DNA from: Pseudoalteromonas sp. N1230-9
Lineage (GTDB): Bacteria; Pseudomonadota; Gammaproteobacteria; Enterobacterales; Alteromonadaceae
NCBI RefSeq assembly: GCF_032716425.1
Contig: NZ_CP090419.1
Span: forward strand, 711,501 to 775,500
Length of the DNA: 64,000 nt
Direction of reading: 5' to 3'
Position numbers and translations under genes: made by a program. This document shows, piece by piece, positions 51,925 to 58,155 of the stretch. Below the pieces are notes generated by a model. It ran no database searches. It saw nothing but the letters and a program-made list of their open reading frames with translations, and was not told the origin of the DNA. The stretch's first letter is position 1; each line of letters opens with the position of its first letter.

Positions 51925-52009
51925 GCCAGTATGATGGAATTGGTAGACATGACGGATTCAAAATCCGTTGCCTTCGGGCGTGGCGGTTCAAGTCCGCCTA
52001 CTGGTACCA
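51925..52009 (+). tRNA. tRNA-Leu (anticodon CAA)
   Basis: An 85-nt gene folds as a full cloverleaf with a long variable arm. The acceptor is GCCAGTA/TACTGGT (G1-U72 wobble), the anticodon stem ACGGA/TCCGT encloses TTCAAAA with CAA at 51959-51961, the variable arm is GCC-TTCG-GGC, and the T arm is GGCGG-TTCAAGT-CCGCC. The CCA end is encoded. It is the integration site of the adjacent island. Confidence 0.96.
51956..51982 (+). repeat. att core, left copy (within tRNA-Leu)
   Basis: 27 bases of the tRNA, from the 3' end of the anticodon-arm 5' strand through the variable arm, identical to 57658-57684. This is the probable crossover segment. Confidence 0.8.
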
Positions 52010-52044: not shown

Positions 52045-52136
52045 ATGCCTGAAAAAGTAGTGTGCGGACTTAAGCGCCACGCGAGGCGAGGCACTAAAGC
52101 AAGTAAAAGTCCGCCTACTGGTACCACTTTTATGAC
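52045..52136 (+). repeat. Long nested repeat, left copy
   Basis: About 92 bases running from ATGCCTGAAAAAGT through GCACTAAAGCAAGTAAAA to the tRNA 3' end (GTCCGCCTACTGGTACCAC) and CTTTTATGAC. It is nearly identical to 57756-57841 and shares its last 40 bases or so with 57685-57730. Confidence 0.85.
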
Positions 52137-52261
52137 CGTCGATTTTAAAGGGGGTTTTCTTTTCTGTAATGTGGTTTTTCTTAGTCTCATCCATCTTTAT
52201 AAAACTTACTCAAACTGTAACGATTTTTGTCACAGTTTGTTTCTGCTTTTTACGTGTCACA

Positions 52262-52665
52262 ATGGCCATGAGTTGTTTTTGCTAAAGCTCACTTCTATTA
52301 GCTTGGATTCTTGTAAGTGATATTTCAGAGCCCCTCACAGAGCCTGTTTCGCTAATTGATATTAATAACAACTTGGCTTTGTCAGAGTCAATATCGAGTA
52401 CAGATGAATGCCATGTAAACCACACAGGCCATAGTTTCATGTTATTGGATGAAGGTGGGATCATAACGTTTGATGACGACCACGGTGCGTCAGACTGGGG
52501 ATTTGATGATGCAGGTATCAGTGATAATACAGATTTTTAGGTAGTGAAGGAAGGGGGGTGGTGGATACCATTTTAGGCAGGTGTAGCAACAATCATCTTA
52601 TTCGCTGCGGTTTATTATCTGATCAAAGAAATTTTGAAAAGAAAATACACTTCGAATAAGAAATA
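52262..52665 (+). pseudogene. Decayed exported/membrane protein gene
   Basis: One reading frame of about 134 codons is open except for TAA at 52283 and TAG at 52538 and 52574. It begins at ATG 52262; a hydrophobic leader (LLLAWILV) follows, then an acidic segment 'SEPLTEPVSLIDINNNLAL', a 'DDDHGASDWGFDDAGISDNTDF' stretch, WWIPF, a transmembrane helix (AGVATIILFAAVYYLIKEIL) and a lysine-rich tail. The layout of leader, short ectodomain, helix and basic tail suggests a small bitopic membrane protein. The family is not recognised. The stops fit decay. Confidence 0.5.
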
Positions 52666-53191
52666 GTTTGTACTAGATCTGACTGTTACCTATTTTTCAA
52701 TCGGTGACTGTTAGTTTAGATTTGAGCAAAATTCTTCTCAGCAAATAAAAAAAGTTGGTAATCAAATTCTCGTTAGTTAGTGTCCTTACCAAAGCCCATA
52801 TCAGTGGGCTTTTTTGTGTTCAAATCTGGTTACTGTTCCAATAAGGTCTGTTTTATATGTATTTACGACTTCGCCCAGTTTCTATCTTAAGTGCTCAATT
52901 CTAAAATAGGGATAACGTAAATTCTTTAAAGATATTTTATGAGAGGTAGCTGGGCATTAAAAGATTAAATTTACTTCTACATATTTGACTAAAAGTTTAA
53001 TTTTTACAATAACATTATTAAGCGCCGTTTTTGCAATATAACAAGTTGAACACCTAGTTGTTTTAATAGTTTATTTACAAATGTAATTTTTGGTGGGATC
53101 ATCATGATATGTAATACGCACTATTTTGATGTGTTATAAATCATCACAATGGTTTCAATAAGTTTCTATTTTTAAAGGAGTAAGCATATTA
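52666..53191. other. Intergenic region upstream of the membrane coiled-coil gene
   Basis: 526 AT-rich bases without a credible ORF. It contains one intrinsic terminator (52791-52815) and must carry the promoter of the following gene. I see no other repeat or RNA structure. Confidence 0.5.
52791..52815 (+). terminator. Intrinsic terminator within the island
   Basis: Stem AAAGCCCA-TATCAG-TGGGCTTT followed by a T run. No intact gene precedes it; it probably served the decayed gene at 52262-52665. Confidence 0.75.
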
Positions 53192-54361
53192 ATGGAAGAG
53201 TATTATCCAATTTGGTTATCTATTATTCTGGGAATTCCATTGGGTTGTGGGATAAGTTTCGCTGTTTGCAGTTTAAAAGGTAAGGCAAAGCAAGCGTTTT
53301 TATTAGGGAGTGGGGGCTCAATTACAGGGGTACTTATTGTACAAGCAACTACGATGACTGAAGTGGAGGTTTCTTTAAGCTTCTTATCTCTTTCATTAAC
53401 GGCATTAGTTACCGCAAGTTTATTGATATATTTTTATGTGTCTGACTTGAAAAAAAAGTGCCCAACCCTTCCTTTTAATATTTCATATCTTATTTCCTCA
53501 GACAGTAGATTAACGGAGATATATGAACAATACATCGAATCTGAGACACAAGGTATAGCTCGTAAAGATGAACTAGATATAAAAAGTAAAGAACTTAAAG
53601 AAAAAGAAGATGCTCTAAACCTTAAATCAAAAGAATTAGAAAAACAGCGAAAAGCTCAGGAAGAAATGGAGGAGAATATTAAGGAAAGAGTAAAAAATGG
53701 ATACACACTTAGCCTACCTGACTCAAAAAATATTCCTTTGAGTGAATCTATGGTTCGCTCATTACCTCGATATTTTGAGCATATTCTTAGATTTTTAGAT
53801 GAAGTAGGCTTACAATTTGAGCAACTTAATGCAAGATTTCCTTCTACGGATGACTTTCCAAAGGAAATTTTAATAAAATCTAGTCTTGAGGTTATAGCCC
53901 GTAGTATTCGAAGTCATCTGATTCAAGATTCATCGGCCAGAGTAACATTCAGGATTTTAGATGGTAATCACTTTAAAGCTTTTGCTGTCGATTCTAGAGG
54001 TGGCGCTGCTAAAAGTGTTTCTGACATTCCTAATGATAGTACAAACATGATCAAAGCTTCGGCAGGAGTCAAAAGAGGGTTGGTTAAAAGCATAAATCCT
54101 GAATATGACTATAATTCAAATGGGATTGGTTCTAAATGGGATGATTACCTGACTAGTACATTTGAACAATATGTCCTTGACGAACATCCACTTATTTCTA
54201 TGAATATATCTATTCAAGGATCAAGCTCGGAATTATCAAACTTTTTAAAATTCATGTCGTATATAAAGTTTGAAATTTTAATTGAAGATTTGTTAGATAT
54301 GGTTGATGACAACTATTCGTTGAAAAGTTTTTTATTATCTCTACAGAAGGAAGCCGCATAA
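53192..54361 (+). CDS. Membrane-anchored coiled-coil protein with possible GAF-like domain
   Basis: A 389-aa protein I cannot assign to a named family. Two or three N-terminal transmembrane helices (about residues 7-27, 33-52 and 62-86) are followed by a charged coiled coil (about 122-172, with repeated KSKELKEKE-type heptads). A C-terminal alpha/beta domain (about 215-385) has the pattern 'ARVTFRILDGNHFKAFAVDSRGG ... PLISMNISIQG', which resembles a GAF-type sensor. AAAGGAG lies about 11 bases before the ATG. The TAA overlaps the next ATG (TAATG). A membrane sensor or effector in a defence cassette is inferred from context only. Confidence 0.72.
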   Translation: MEEYYPIWLSIILGIPLGCGISFAVCSLKGKAKQAFLLGSGGSITGVLIVQATTMTEVEVSLSFLSLSLTALVTASLLIYFYVSDLKKKCPTLPFNISYLISSDSRLTEIYEQYIESETQGIARKDELDIKSKELKEKEDALNLKSKELEKQRKAQEEMEENIKERVKNGYTLSLPDSKNIPLSESMVRSLPRYFEHILRFLDEVGLQFEQLNARFPSTDDFPKEILIKSSLEVIARSIRSHLIQDSSARVTFRILDGNHFKAFAVDSRGGAAKSVSDIPNDSTNMIKASAGVKRGLVKSINPEYDYNSNGIGSKWDDYLTSTFEQYVLDEHPLISMNISIQGSSSELSNFLKFMSYIKFEILIEDLLDMVDDNYSLKSFLLSLQKEAA

Positions 54362-54582
54362 TGTCAAAAGTTTCTTTGGGTTCAGCATTAACAGCACCTA
54401 GCTTTTATGATTACATCGGAGACAAGGAAAAAGCTAAAAAAGCTGAAATATTAGTTGAGGAACATCTTGCAAACCACAGTAGTTCTGATGGGGATGAATA
54501 TCTGTTTATTGAGGTAAGCCGAGCGGATAAAGCACTCTTAGAGGCGTATAAGAAATATAACAAGCAAATTAATAAAGGCTAA
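54361..54582 (+). CDS. Small protein coupled to the membrane coiled-coil gene
   Basis: A 73-aa soluble protein, rich in Lys and Glu, without signal or membrane helix. It reads as two helices with a hinge ('AEILVEEHLANHSSSDGDEYLFIEVSRADKALLEAYKKY'). Its ATG overlaps the stop of the preceding gene by one base, so the two are almost certainly translated together and may interact. The family is not recognised. Confidence 0.65.
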   Translation: MSKVSLGSALTAPSFYDYIGDKEKAKKAEILVEEHLANHSSSDGDEYLFIEVSRADKALLEAYKKYNKQINKG

Positions 54583-54641
54583 ATATAGTTTGCTCTTGCC
54601 CCACCGTTGCTTATTTTAACTAACAGTTTTTAGAGTGTTAT

Positions 54642-54671
54642 TTGAGCATTATCAGTATTTACTACTAATAT
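54642..54671 (+). promoter_or_regulatory. Candidate promoter of the OLD-family gene
   Basis: TTGAGC, an 18-base spacer and TAATAT, about 90 bases before the ATG at 54761. It is a pattern match only; the gene could also be read from the upstream pair. Confidence 0.35.
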
Positions 54672-54760
54672 TTTAATTGGAAAGTGGGTAATAGCATGAG
54701 ATAAAAATGCGCAAGTCTCGCATAATTAGTGTTAAGCCTTCAATCAAGGTTCAGGGAACG

Positions 54761-56373
54761 ATGAAAATATCAAAAGTAACCATCAAAAACTTTAGATCGA
54801 AAATGCAGTTTTTGACTTCAAAGATTTTAATGTTTTTGTAGGTCAAAATAATGCTGGCAAAACAAACCTTTTTGAAGCAATAGGATGGTTCTTTAAAGGA
54901 TTACCAAAAGGAAAATCAATAAGAGATTTATACCCAAATAGAAATACCTCTAAAGAGATTTCAGTGGAAATTGAATTCGAAGGTGCTCTGCATGGCGCTG
55001 AGAATATGCGTAATGAAGCTAATAAAACGAAAATGTTAAACGTTCTAGATGGTAACGATACACTTACAGTAAAGAGAACAAGCACTGAACCTACCAAAAG
55101 GAAATTAACCATTGGTGGGTTGGAGTTAGCTAGAAACCCAGCAGGTTTTGATAAAGCATTCAACGATTTCTTACCTAAATTTGAGTATATTCATACAAAG
55201 CAATATTTTGATGAGGTTGCAAAATATTCATCTAAAACACCTGTTGGAATAATGCTCTCTTCAGTGTTAGAAGAAATCCTTCAAGATGATCCTCAGTATA
55301 GTGCTTTTAGAACTAAATTTGATGAGTTGTTTGATGATGAAAATTCGGCGGTAAAAGTTGAATTTGATAAGCTTGGTGATAGCGTCAAGACACACTTGGA
55401 GAAACAGTTTGCAGAGTGTACAAAGGTCTGTTTCGAGGTCACTAGTCCTGAGTTTGACGATTTATTGAAAAATTTCCAAACAAAGGTGGATGATGGTGTA
55501 GAAACTTATGCTTCGGAGAAAGGTGATGGTATGCAGAGAGCGTTAATGCTCGCAATAATCCAAGCTTATGCGGAGTATAGAAAAAACCGTGATGATGCAG
55601 GTAAATCATTTCTTTTCTTCATAGATGAGGCCGAACTACATTTGCATCCAACCGCACAAAGAAAGCTGAAGAATGTTTTATTGGAACTTTGCGAAGATCT
55701 CGATCAAGTATTTATAAACACACATTCTTCTGTATTTGTAGCAGATGAACATGCCGCACAAAAAATTTTTAAAGTCGAAAAAGAGGATAGTCATACCAAT
55801 TTCAGGCCTGTGGACACTTTCGATAAACCATATGTGGTTTTTGAATTGTTAGGAGGAAGCCCTTCAGACTTACTATTACCTCGTAACTTCATAATTGTTG
55901 AGGGCCCCAGTGAAGTCGAATTGTTAACTAGAGTTATTCGTCGTTTTTATCCGGATAAGCCGTGTGTTCAAGTAATTTCTGCCGAAGGTGATACTCATCA
56001 AGCCAAACGTTCTATCAATGCAATTAAAAAGGCGTTTAAACCGCTAGAGAGCTCAATTTTCGAAGAAAAAATGGTGGTTTTGTGTGATGCACCCACAAAT
56101 AAGGCGCAAGCTGGATTTGATGATTTTATTAAGACTTTCAAAACCTTTAAAGATAGAGGGCAAATAATTGTCTTAGAGCGAGGTTCACTTGAAGAGTGTT
56201 ATCCAGACCATGAAGATTGGAAGCGCACAGAAGAACAAGTTTCTGAAATGAGCGGCAAACAAAAGACAAAACTATCAAAACGGGTAGGTGATCATATTAC
56301 GAAAGAACAATTTGAGAATGAAATGCCAACATTGTTTAACACTCTCGAAACCGCGTGGGAATTAGCGTATTGA
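54761..56373 (+). pseudogene. OLD-family ATPase/TOPRIM endonuclease, frameshifted near the start
   Basis: The ATG at 54761 (AGGGA just upstream) begins MKISKVTIKNFRS, the classic N terminus of SMC/OLD-type ATPases, but this frame stops at 54839. The rest continues in another frame: IENAVFDFKDFNVFV, Walker A GQNNAGKT (about 54841-54864), an ABC-signature-like EKGDGMQRALM, Walker B FFIDEAELHLHP, a switch INTHSSV, then a TOPRIM domain (IIVEGPSEVELL; CDAPTNK). Restoring one ATCG unit after 54799 would give FRSIENA and a protein of about 537 aa. No in-frame ATG or TTG exists between the shift and GTG 54964, which lies past Walker A. Probably inactivated, or a sequencing error. Confidence 0.8.
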
Positions 56374-56452
56374 AAATTAACAAGTCGTTCCAGGTGATGC
56401 CTATAGCGCAATTAGAACAAACGTTAGCCTTAATTTGAAGATGTAATTTGCT

Positions 56453-56481
56453 TTGACATTTATTTCTAGTCGCTCCATAAT
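56453..56481 (+). promoter_or_regulatory. Promoter of the type III antitoxin RNA
   Basis: TTGACA (56453-56458), a 17-base spacer and CATAAT (56476-56481): a near-consensus sigma-70 promoter just before the tandem repeats. Confidence 0.8.
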
Positions 56482-56500
56482 TAGAATGTAGTCAGTGGCG

Positions 56501-56604
56501 GTAGGAGCACCCCACGTAAAAAACTGAAGCGTCCAAACAGAATGTTGTGGAGGTAGGAGCACCCCACGTAAAAAACTGAAGCATCCAAACAGAATTGACT
56601 ACCG
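56501..56604 (+). ncRNA. tenpI: Type III antitoxin RNA repeats (TenpI/ToxI type)
   Basis: Two tandem 52-bp units (56501-56552 and 56553-56604), identical over the first 30 bases (GTAGGAGCACCCCACGTAAA and on) with one substitution before position 45. They are preceded by a partial unit from about 56484 (AGAATGTAGTCAGTGG). A near-consensus promoter lies upstream, and an intrinsic terminator and the toxin gene follow. In type III systems each repeat is cut by the toxin and the RNA monomers bind and inhibit it. The GGAG/CCCAC and later segments could form pseudoknot pairs. Confidence 0.78.
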
Positions 56605-56605
56605 A

Positions 56606-56629
56606 AAGCCTCCGAAAGGAGGTTTTTTC
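56606..56629 (+). terminator. Attenuating terminator between antitoxin RNA and toxin gene
   Basis: Stem GCCTCC-GAAA-GGAGGT followed by TTTTTT, 19 bases before the toxin start. In type III loci such a terminator limits toxin mRNA relative to antitoxin RNA. Confidence 0.88.
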
Positions 56630-56647
56630 GTTTAGGGAAGTATATTT

Positions 56648-57118
56648 GTGCAATTAAAAAAATTAGACAGCTCTTTTTATACTGAAAACTCACATTTAAA
56701 AGAAGCATTAGATAACCATAATGGGAATTGGGCTCAAGGCAAGATCCGAGGCTATGGAATCGTACTTATTACAATAAACAGCTTATCTTTTGCAATCCCG
56801 CTTAGGTCAAACATAAAGCATAAGTCCTCTTATATCACCGTAAAATCTAACCAAGCCAATATTGAAGGTAAAGGATTGGATTTCACTAAAGCTCTTGTAA
56901 TAGCTGATCAAAAGTATATATCAAACTTACCTTTCAAAATATCATCCTCAGAACATCAAAAACTGGCGAATAAAGAGTATTACATTACCAAAAAATTTGA
57001 GAAATATGTCGAAAAATATATTAATGCAGTTAGCAAGCCTGATGAAAATATTTTAGGCAGTGTGGACTACCGTTTTTCTACTCTTTGTAACTATCATGCC
57101 GAGTTAGGTTTACTGTAA
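56648..57118 (+). CDS. tenpN: Type III toxin-antitoxin endoribonuclease toxin, TenpN-like
   Basis: A 156-aa basic cytoplasmic protein that resembles the TenpN branch of ToxN/AbiQ-type endoribonuclease toxins. The family-like core is 'RGYGIVLITINSLSFAIPLRSNIKH' (about residues 34-58), a beta-rich segment with the conserved Pro-Leu-Arg-Ser, then 'GLDFTKALVIADQKYI' and a helical C-terminus. The start is GTG (56648) with AGGGAAG about 8 bases upstream. It directly follows antitoxin RNA repeats and a terminator, the defining order of type III loci. Toxicity, neutralisation and phage abortive infection are family knowledge; the TenpN assignment is from recall. Confidence 0.8.
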   Translation: MQLKKLDSSFYTENSHLKEALDNHNGNWAQGKIRGYGIVLITINSLSFAIPLRSNIKHKSSYITVKSNQANIEGKGLDFTKALVIADQKYISNLPFKISSSEHQKLANKEYYITKKFEKYVEKYINAVSKPDENILGSVDYRFSTLCNYHAELGLL

Positions 57119-57272
57119 AGTCAACAAAGCTTCAACCAAGTACGAAAAACAGCATATTGTGCTCCTTTTCCATTAAGTTTAGCCTGCGATCTTACGCCGC
57201 GATTAGTAAAAATTTGCCAAAGTCTGGCTCTGACACTTAAGAGGAAATAAAAAATATAAATAAGGAAATTCA

Positions 57273-57563
57273 ATGGTTACAAAGGATGAAGAAAAAGAGC
57301 TACCAATCCCCTTTGAGTGGCGACAAACATTATACACCGTTGTAGAGCGCCTCGTTAAAAATAACCATCACTCAATAGGTAAAATTCCATTAGTGTCAAA
57401 ATTACCTGAGGCTACCTCAATCCAAATCAATTCTTACATTGAAGATTACGGTGAAAAGTTGATTAGCTTACCTGAATTCGCATGGGATTCATCTGTTTAT
57501 GTTTGGCATAAAGCCCGTGATTGCAAGTGTTTATCTTCAAGTAAATTATATAAAAAACTGTGA
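57273..57563 (+). CDS. Small island protein, 96 aa
   Basis: A soluble 96-aa protein with a good AAGGA ribosome binding site 6 bases before the ATG. It begins with an acidic stretch and then PIPFEWRQTLYTVVERLVKN, and ends in a lysine-rich tail with a CKC pair. The 'PIPFEWR' opening recalls a small uncharacterised family seen in accessory regions (DUF7668-like), but I hold this loosely. It lies 154 bp after the toxin gene, in the same direction. Confidence 0.55.
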   Translation: MVTKDEEKELPIPFEWRQTLYTVVERLVKNNHHSIGKIPLVSKLPEATSIQINSYIEDYGEKLISLPEFAWDSSVYVWHKARDCKCLSSSKLYKKL

Positions 57564-57657
57564 CGATTTTTTGCCATTGTGACAATGTTTTGTCAAAGCA
57601 TTAAAAATTAAAATCTTAAATATCAATAATTTAAGTTTCACCTATGCTGTTACACAA

Positions 57658-57684
57658 ATTCAAAATCCGTTGCCTTCGGGCGTG
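57658..57684 (+). repeat. att core, right copy (tRNA-Leu fragment)
   Basis: 27 bases identical to the tRNA anticodon-to-variable-arm segment, followed by ACACTAAAGCGAATAAAAG and then the tRNA 3' end (TTCGCCTACTGGTACCAC). The 5' half of a tRNA is missing, so it is not a functional gene. Confidence 0.8.
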
Positions 57685-57728
57685 ACACTAAAGCGAATAA
57701 AAGTTCGCCTACTGGTACCACTTTTATG

Positions 57729-57755
57729 ACCTCAGCAGTTTTGCTGGGTTTTTTT
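57729..57755 (+). terminator. Terminator inside the right att array
   Basis: Stem CAGCA-GTTT-TGCTG (within CTCAGCAGTTTTGCTGGG) plus seven Ts, in the place where the left end has the tRNA terminator. Confidence 0.7.
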
Positions 57756-57841
57756 ATGCCTGAAAAAGTGGTGTGCGGTCTTAAGCGCCACGCGGGCGTG
57801 GCACTAAAGCAAGTAAAAGTCCGTCTACTGGTACCACTTTT
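57756..57841 (+). repeat. Long nested repeat, right copy
   Basis: About 86 bases almost identical to 52045-52131, including the palindrome GCCACGCGGGCGTGGC and the tRNA 3' end (GTCTACTGGTACCAC). It is followed by GAACCCTAGCCAATTGG, the same sequence that follows the intact tRNA. Confidence 0.85.
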
Positions 57842-58155
57842 GAACCCTAGCCAATTGGTTAGGTTTTTTATGCCTGCAAGGAACTACAGTGCAAGCCTAT
57901 TTGTGACTTTCAGATAGCTTCAGAGCCTACCAGCTAATTCTTTCTCACGCTCGTTTTGTTCTATTTATAAACGAATAAATGTAAACGGTGCTTGGTATTT
58001 AAATAACCTTAAAATAAGTGTGCTTATTTGTATGGAAAGTAATCGTTTTAGACTAGGGTAGCATGGCGTTTTTACTCATCTTATAATACAATTTGCAGCC
58101 TGAAGTTTAAGTGAAGTCAATCACTTAGTGCACAAAATCGGTAGGGTGGCAAAGC
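57842..58155. other. Intergenic region downstream of the island
   Basis: 314 bases: a terminator copy at 57843-57871, then AT-rich DNA with no ORF I trust. It should contain the promoter of the GAF/GGDEF/EAL gene, but no consensus is clear. Confidence 0.5.

Follow-up and report, generated by a model that had tools for sequence, protein, structure and literature searches.

A TenpIN toxin-antitoxin module on a Pseudoalteromonas tRNA-linked island, and toxin-free TenpI-like RNAs in phages that may counter such toxins

A stretch of 64,000 nucleotides (nt) from Pseudoalteromonas sp. N1230-9 (NZ_CP090419.1, positions 711,501 to 775,500), hereafter called the window, was analyzed around a TenpIN-type toxin-antitoxin locus at 56453-57118. 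All features of the locus lie on the forward strand. The operon promoter, TTGACA-17-CATAAT at 56453-56481, matched the consensus at 11 of 12 positions, in agreement with the near-consensus promoter of the first-pass annotation, and the region held 2 promoter-like sites compared to a shuffled mean of 0.5. The promoter was followed by two antitoxin units of the same fold, TenpI unit 1 (56495-56546) and unit 2 (56547-56595), which scored 50.5 and 46.7 bits with an RNA model. Tandem Repeats Finder gave a period of 52, 1.9 copies and a 95% match over 56495-56595, and a separate repeat search gave two 49-nt copies at 96%. The two 52-bp repeats named in the first-pass annotation were thus recovered, but its partial third repeat was not. 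Only a few bases (AGAAT) were common to the flanks, which instead formed a helix that we called P0. The antitoxin was separated from the toxin by an intrinsic terminator at 56604-56628, read from the RNA fold as a 10-bp hairpin (56604-56627) running into a T stretch. A terminator between repeats and toxin is a feature of TenpIN type III loci and had been annotated here, though a simple terminator scan of the region listed none; the hairpin and T run are known from the fold. The toxin gene tenpN (56648-57118) was an intact open reading frame (ORF) of 156 amino acids (aa), with the GTG start and core motif given to it earlier.

The toxin was examined by family and by fold. It scored 132.9 bits against NF047358 (TenpIN), for which the cut-off is 90, over model positions 1-141 of 141. 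This placed it inside the TenpIN family and not outside the ToxN-like families, as the TenpIN-type assignment had proposed. PHROG 8049, a family of no known function, also matched with 144 bits. A weak AbiQ match (E 0.011) was found in one of 50 toxin relatives, and the predicted structure model showed a ToxN-like endoribonuclease fold. These results suggested that the window toxin is a member of the TenpN family, predicted to be an endoribonuclease of ToxN/AbiQ fold.

The antitoxin unit was ordered as S1 (GUGGnGG with CCnCAC), a 2-nt loop, S2a, S1b, an A-rich loop (GUAAAAAAC..AA) and S2b. In unit 1, S1 was formed by 56495-56501 with 56510-56515 and S2 by 56504-56508 with 56529-56534, with the A-rich loop between. 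Both sides of S2 had changed together across the family, giving GGA/UCC, GGG/CCC, GGU/ACC, GGC/GCC, GAA/UUC, GAGG/CCUC, GAGU/ACUC and CUGG/CCAG, and pairing was 4 of 4 in 59 of 66 units. MAFFT alignments of the units set S2 one column out between two groups, and S2 was therefore tested by comparing cognate with swapped partners. Over 13 types the cognate mean was 3.62 of 4, compared to 2.89 (standard deviation 0.14) for permuted partners, and 0 of 20,000 permutations was as high. S1 was tested on 35 units, 21 bacterial and 14 from phages, several of the latter coming from a pattern that fixes most of S1. It was paired at 98.1%. Both sides had changed in three of its six pairs, a result reached by 1 of 500 shuffles, and its covariation score exceeded all 500 shuffles and all slid versions. 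Covariation of S1 and S2 across the family supported a pseudoknot, for which the first-pass annotation had suggested folding the 52-nt units; on this evidence, the TenpI unit is a predicted H-type pseudoknot.

The P0 helix joined bases just 5' of unit 1 (GTAGTCA, 56488-56494) with bases between unit 2 and the terminator (TGACTAC, 56596-56602). P0 starts 7 nt after the -10 box in the window, so that its 5' strand is probably the 5' end of the transcript, with the start site placed from the -10 box. A P0 helix of at least 6 bp was found in 25 of 33 loci; the 13 labels given to it reduce to about ten different cores, since some labels share one. Among 29 distinct leaders, the true partners outscored every one of 20,000 permutations, with a mean score of 14.4 compared to 11.4 (standard deviation 0.42). 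The minimum-energy fold of the window RNA also included P0 (z -3.5). The compensated changes favour an inverted repeat that acts as an RNA helix over one with a role at the DNA level. A 2012 paper by Blower in Nucleic Acids Research reportedly defined TenpIN and may mention a flanking inverted repeat. Among the literature matches listed, we recognized no description of P0 or of TenpI-like phage RNAs in the titles and the starts of the abstracts.

Relatives were sampled as 42 distinct loci carrying the toxin. Two units spaced 48-53 nt stood ahead of the toxin in 33 of them, and the repeats upstream of orthologues, on which the first-pass annotation had staked its case, were thus present. The same count showed that two units are usual in the clade, and the reading of the window locus as a compact variant was rejected. 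The other nine loci were L016-L021, with another kind of RNA, L005 and L047, which were pieces without the array, and L040, where two units preceded a frame-broken toxin. L016-L020 carried more distant relatives of TenpN, similar to those seen in Streptococcus phages, and their upstream RNA was clearly different. Since this was so, and the wider RNA model (R1) found no unit in L016 or L019, the toxin family has at least two antitoxin types. TenpN was rare when counted with the window's own genome included: 2 of 108 genomes of the genus, 4 of 394 in the order over the cut-off (6 at E 0.001), 2 of 369 in the class and 2 of 398 in the phylum. It was more visible on plasmids (93 of 72,556 records), and among phage records it appeared in 14 of 50,697, 13 of them Streptococcus. 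A close relative of the toxin (87%) lay at 497-967 of L003, a gammaproteobacterial metagenome-assembled genome, near an ORF read as glmU. A TenpIN locus also stood at 1384-2012 of L039 (PQ189334.1), directly behind an integrase-like gene in a 13.7-kb record of a Vinavirales Vibrio phage with a PM2-like capsid.

Based on the above results, we hold with high confidence that the window locus is a type III toxin-antitoxin module of the TenpIN family. The gene order, family, fold match, covariation of pseudoknot and P0, and island context were established in this analysis. Several observations weighed against this reading. The window toxin had no match in Pfam, PADLOC or PDB sequences, and a PDB sequence search with the single protein and then with a 50-row profile returned nothing meaningful. 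Foldseek alone gave no match at E 0.001 or better, and its ranking put MazF chains first and ToxN (4ato) twelfth. Rfam held no RNA match for the window. The S2 of the window was weaker, with 3 bp, a bulged purine and 2 bp, and was among the 7 of 66 units below 4 of 4. Further pair types in S1 showed no excess over shuffles (78 of 500). P0 was absent in 8 of 33 loci, including those of Acidobacteriota and Priestia, which meant that it is not essential to TenpIN, and the RNA model found no unit in L016, L019, L021 or L025. As PHROG 8049 has no known function and PADLOC has no matching model, annotation of this kind can pass over the system.

The action of the module may be proposed from characterized relatives, from which RNA cutting, neutralization, toxin release and phage defence are all inferred. 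The single promoter would yield an RNA with two pseudoknotted antitoxin units, and the toxin mRNA would arise by partial read-through of the terminator. TenpN, as a ToxN-like endoribonuclease, would cut the RNA between the units, and the two pseudoknots would keep it inactive, probably in a small closed complex. Pairing of leader and trailer in P0, present in most relatives examined, may tie the two units together and shield the 5' end. When the RNA supply stops, for example on phage shut-off of host transcription, TenpN would be freed and growth would stop.

The locus was carried on an island (52055-57953, forward strand) at the tRNA-Leu (CAA) gene of 51925-52009, which was the insertion point. 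Three related genomes (G057, G003 and G022) aligned with the window as far as about 52.05-52.14 kb, and the match resumed at 57.95 kb. They had the same tRNA-Leu at the site and just 0.1-0.4 kb of their own DNA in place of the island. Partial copies of the tRNA-Leu 3' region were present near the right end (57658-57684 exact, 57701-57794 at 83%, 57817-57910 at 71%). The tRNA linkage of the island, already suspected, was supported by both its absence from relatives and these copies. In genome G082, 11.4 kb around the locus were 100% identical. Upstream of tenpIN, at 54761-56373, lay an OLD-like ATPase-TOPRIM nuclease gene (PADLOC Old, E 4.9e-41). Its ATG at 54761 and the Walker A near 54841 were in different reading frames; the listed 469-aa ORF began only after the Walker A, and a second strain (L002) had the same ORF. 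Three other island proteins are possibly further cargo. They were a 389-aa protein (53192-54361), which by eye looked like a membrane coiled-coil, and a 73-aa protein (54361-54582), both with no curated family match, and a 96-aa protein (57273-57563) with DUF7668 (34.2 bits).

It is unlikely, in our judgment, that the module serves only to stabilize the island by addiction. A small island at a tRNA, whose ORFs showed no integrase when scanned by length and by family, would suit such a role, as would the relatives on 93 plasmid records. However, the gene next to tenpIN resembles an anti-phage nuclease of the OLD family, though its start is frame-broken, and TenpIN of Photorhabdus aborts phages. 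The addiction and defence roles are also compatible.

The window locus was compared with known systems. It shares with TenpIN of Photorhabdus luminescens, the type locus, the gene order, the toxin family model, the repeat array and the terminator before the toxin. It differs in that the Pseudoalteromonas copy lies on a tRNA-Leu island, and its pseudoknot and P0 were derived from covariation here. CptIN of Eubacterium rectale has a 45-nt pseudoknot instead of a 52-nt repeat, with no sequence match, and P0 is not mentioned in the available part of its report. ToxIN and AbiQ have 34-36-nt repeats in 2.8-5.5 copies, according to the available part of PMC5086642, unlike the window array. The window locus is an ordinary, clean and intact member of TenpIN, and what makes it valuable is the antitoxin fold, together with the copies of this fold in phages.

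Searching with the unit core as a DNA pattern gave 15 stretches in 2.9 million viral contigs. Four were TenpIN loci, and 11 had no TenpN in the piece or in the whole IMG/VR record. Blastn of the window unit in phages reached one record only, which bears TenpIN. Blastn with the toxin-free (orphan) units reached named phages, at E 0.003 for the AS4 group and 0.4-3 for phiAS4, Serratia, D479 and VpP_43. As these initial values were weak, acceptance rests on the stems and the RNA model. Other rows of this search (Staphylococcus, Bacillus, Cellulophaga and others) were mostly short matches. All seven named phage records were without TenpN in the whole record, while three of three positive controls matched. 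The AS4 unit had matches in 27 records from Aeromonas phages and IME13, a count that includes RefSeq duplicates. In total 13 orphan lineages were counted: L072, L073, L074, L075/76, L077, L078, L082/86, L083, L084, L088 (VpP_43), Aeromonas L089-91, Serratia L092-93 and L094 (D479). These are antitoxin-like RNAs in phages without a toxin, and in this respect resemble phiTE pseudo-ToxI. Two further viral scans gave no new stretch. Another scan gave one (L087), but its contig starts within a unit that has a TenpN-like ORF behind it, and it was not counted as an orphan.

The orphan units were checked with a second covariance model (R2), built from 21 bacterial units alone and run on the 17 orphan pieces and the T4 tRNA region. 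A unit was found in 17 of 17 pieces. Fourteen matches scored 42.6-56.6 bits (E 3e-8 or less), two of them in L074, and lower scores were obtained for VpP_43 (30.4), 92A1 (24.1), SP1 (19.4) and D479 (19.2 bits). For SP1 and D479, E was near 0.02, not far above the best chance matches (13.5 bits), and they rest mainly on compensated stems. In D479, both stems were rewritten with compensation (GUG-A-GAG with CUCCAC; UUGAU with AUCAA). At least 4 contiguous S2 pairs were present in 14 of 16 orphan sequences, where L083 and L084 failed and L078 needed G-U pairs. With 14 distinct partners, none of 50,000 permutations scored as well as the true pairing. Rfam on 15 phage pieces returned only tRNA families at threshold. 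The T4 stable RNAs rnaC and rnaD, which lie in the tRNA cluster (L104, T4 69000-74500), were rejected as relatives, with a best R1 score of 9.7 bits and no R2 match, compared to at least 31.9 bits (R1) for counted units. When R1 was run on 108 genomes from the genus and 99 from another one, every unit that it found was linked to TenpN; the strict filters of these scans lost a divergent TenpIN array (G1192), and weak orphans could have escaped as well. The phage identity of the contigs was assessed from individual proteins, including a terminase in L084, a replicative helicase in L082, a DNA polymerase in L078 and a primase in L074. The L077 test protein gave no match, and the phage nature of L083 was less sure because it carries a homing endonuclease and a protein that we read as flagellin-like.

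The placement of the units was then compared among phage genomes. By raw count, the unit lay within 300 nt of a phage tRNA gene on the same strand in 8 of 13 lineages (L073, L076, L077, L082, L083, L088, Aeromonas and L094). Seven of these eight had four or more tRNAs on the piece, and L076 had one. In D479, the unit occupied nearly all of the space between two tRNAs, leaving 7 nt on one side and 3 nt on the other. The pieces L072, L074, L078, L084 and the two Serratia ones held no tRNA, and the Serratia units were near the rIII lysis-inhibition gene. A 19-20-bp helix (inverted repeat) enclosed the unit in the T4-like Aeromonas phages L089 (2476-2586), L090 and L091; it was rejected as a general orphan feature, as only these three pieces had one beating all shuffles. 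A Seg-like endonuclease was found in the Aes508 array.

The orphans are probably RNA decoys, in which the phage TenpI-like pseudoknot would bind freed TenpN and keep it inactive. In many cases the decoy would be released from the tRNA-array transcript by tRNA-processing enzymes. This reading is consistent with pseudoknot units in 13 phage lineages and TenpN in none of the records searched, with the S2 permutation result, and with the frequent closeness to tRNAs. A single CptI repeat is fully antitoxic to its toxin in the available part of PMC4627078, which means that a single unit can suffice. PhiTE pseudo-ToxI is a functional relative for which suppression of the toxin was demonstrated (PMC3475682, as far as the available text goes). 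Wild-type phiTE carries 1.5 repeats of this ToxI-family RNA and gains a full pseudo-ToxI RNA only when escape mutants expand them (PMC3475682), whereas the TenpI-like orphans are complete units in nature, belong to another antitoxin family and are often near tRNAs. Against decoys stand the failure of L083 and L084 in S2, the possibility that IMG/VR records are fragments, and the raw-count basis of the tRNA closeness. The copies in Serratia phages and in D479 also weigh against this reading, as they came from weak blastn matches (E 0.4-2) and scored low, at 19-24 bits, with the model built from bacterial units. Photorhabdus TenpIN aborts T4-like Serratia phages, according to the available part of PMC5449768, so a selection pressure can exist, and some of the orphan phages have Vibrio or Serratia as hosts, in both of which named TenpIN loci are found. 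SegB, a homing endonuclease beside the T-even phage tRNA array, amplifies anti-defence genes in the part of PMC13096335 available. The support for decoys from precedent, host and endonuclease is circumstantial.

Alternatively, the pseudoknot might have arisen earlier as a phage RNA with another job, such as processing or stabilizing RNA in tRNA arrays, with TenpI recruited from it later. Its presence in the tRNA arrays of unrelated phages and the enclosing helix of the Aeromonas phages would fit such an origin. We consider it rather improbable, since the bacterial tail CAAACAGAA after S2, which contains the inferred TenpN cut site, was kept in L072, L075, L083 and L084, and the T4 tRNA region gave no match. 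Least probable is that the orphans are TenpIN remnants whose toxin was lost and which were kept by chance: although TenpIN does occur on phages and phage-like elements (e.g. Vibrio phage 10N.286.49.B11_PE001) and L074 retains two units, most orphans are single units with compensated S2 changes, they sit near tRNAs in unrelated phages, one element is kept across the AS4 records, and no orphan appeared in 207 bacterial genomes, where decay should leave some (strict filters lose weak matches).

Taken together with the decoy reading, we lean, by somewhat better than an even chance, toward the view that diverse phages (T4-like ones of Aeromonas and Serratia, and large Vibrio phages) carry complete toxin-free TenpI pseudoknots, often in tRNA arrays, as ready-made toxin inhibitors co-processed with tRNAs, whose dosage could be raised by homing endonucleases of the array. 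The TenpI antitoxin gains a covariation-tested fold where Rfam matches nothing, together with a P0 helix closing the two-unit RNA. The toxin-free TenpI-like RNAs in several unrelated phages suggest that phages may disarm a bacterial suicide switch. If they are decoys, natural RNA inhibitors of type III toxins would be fixed phage genes and would not arise only in rare escape mutants, and the gaps between phage tRNAs would be a place to look for anti-defence RNAs. If the wider view is true, phage tRNA arrays would serve as anti-defence islands in which decoy RNAs stand beside the tRNAs.
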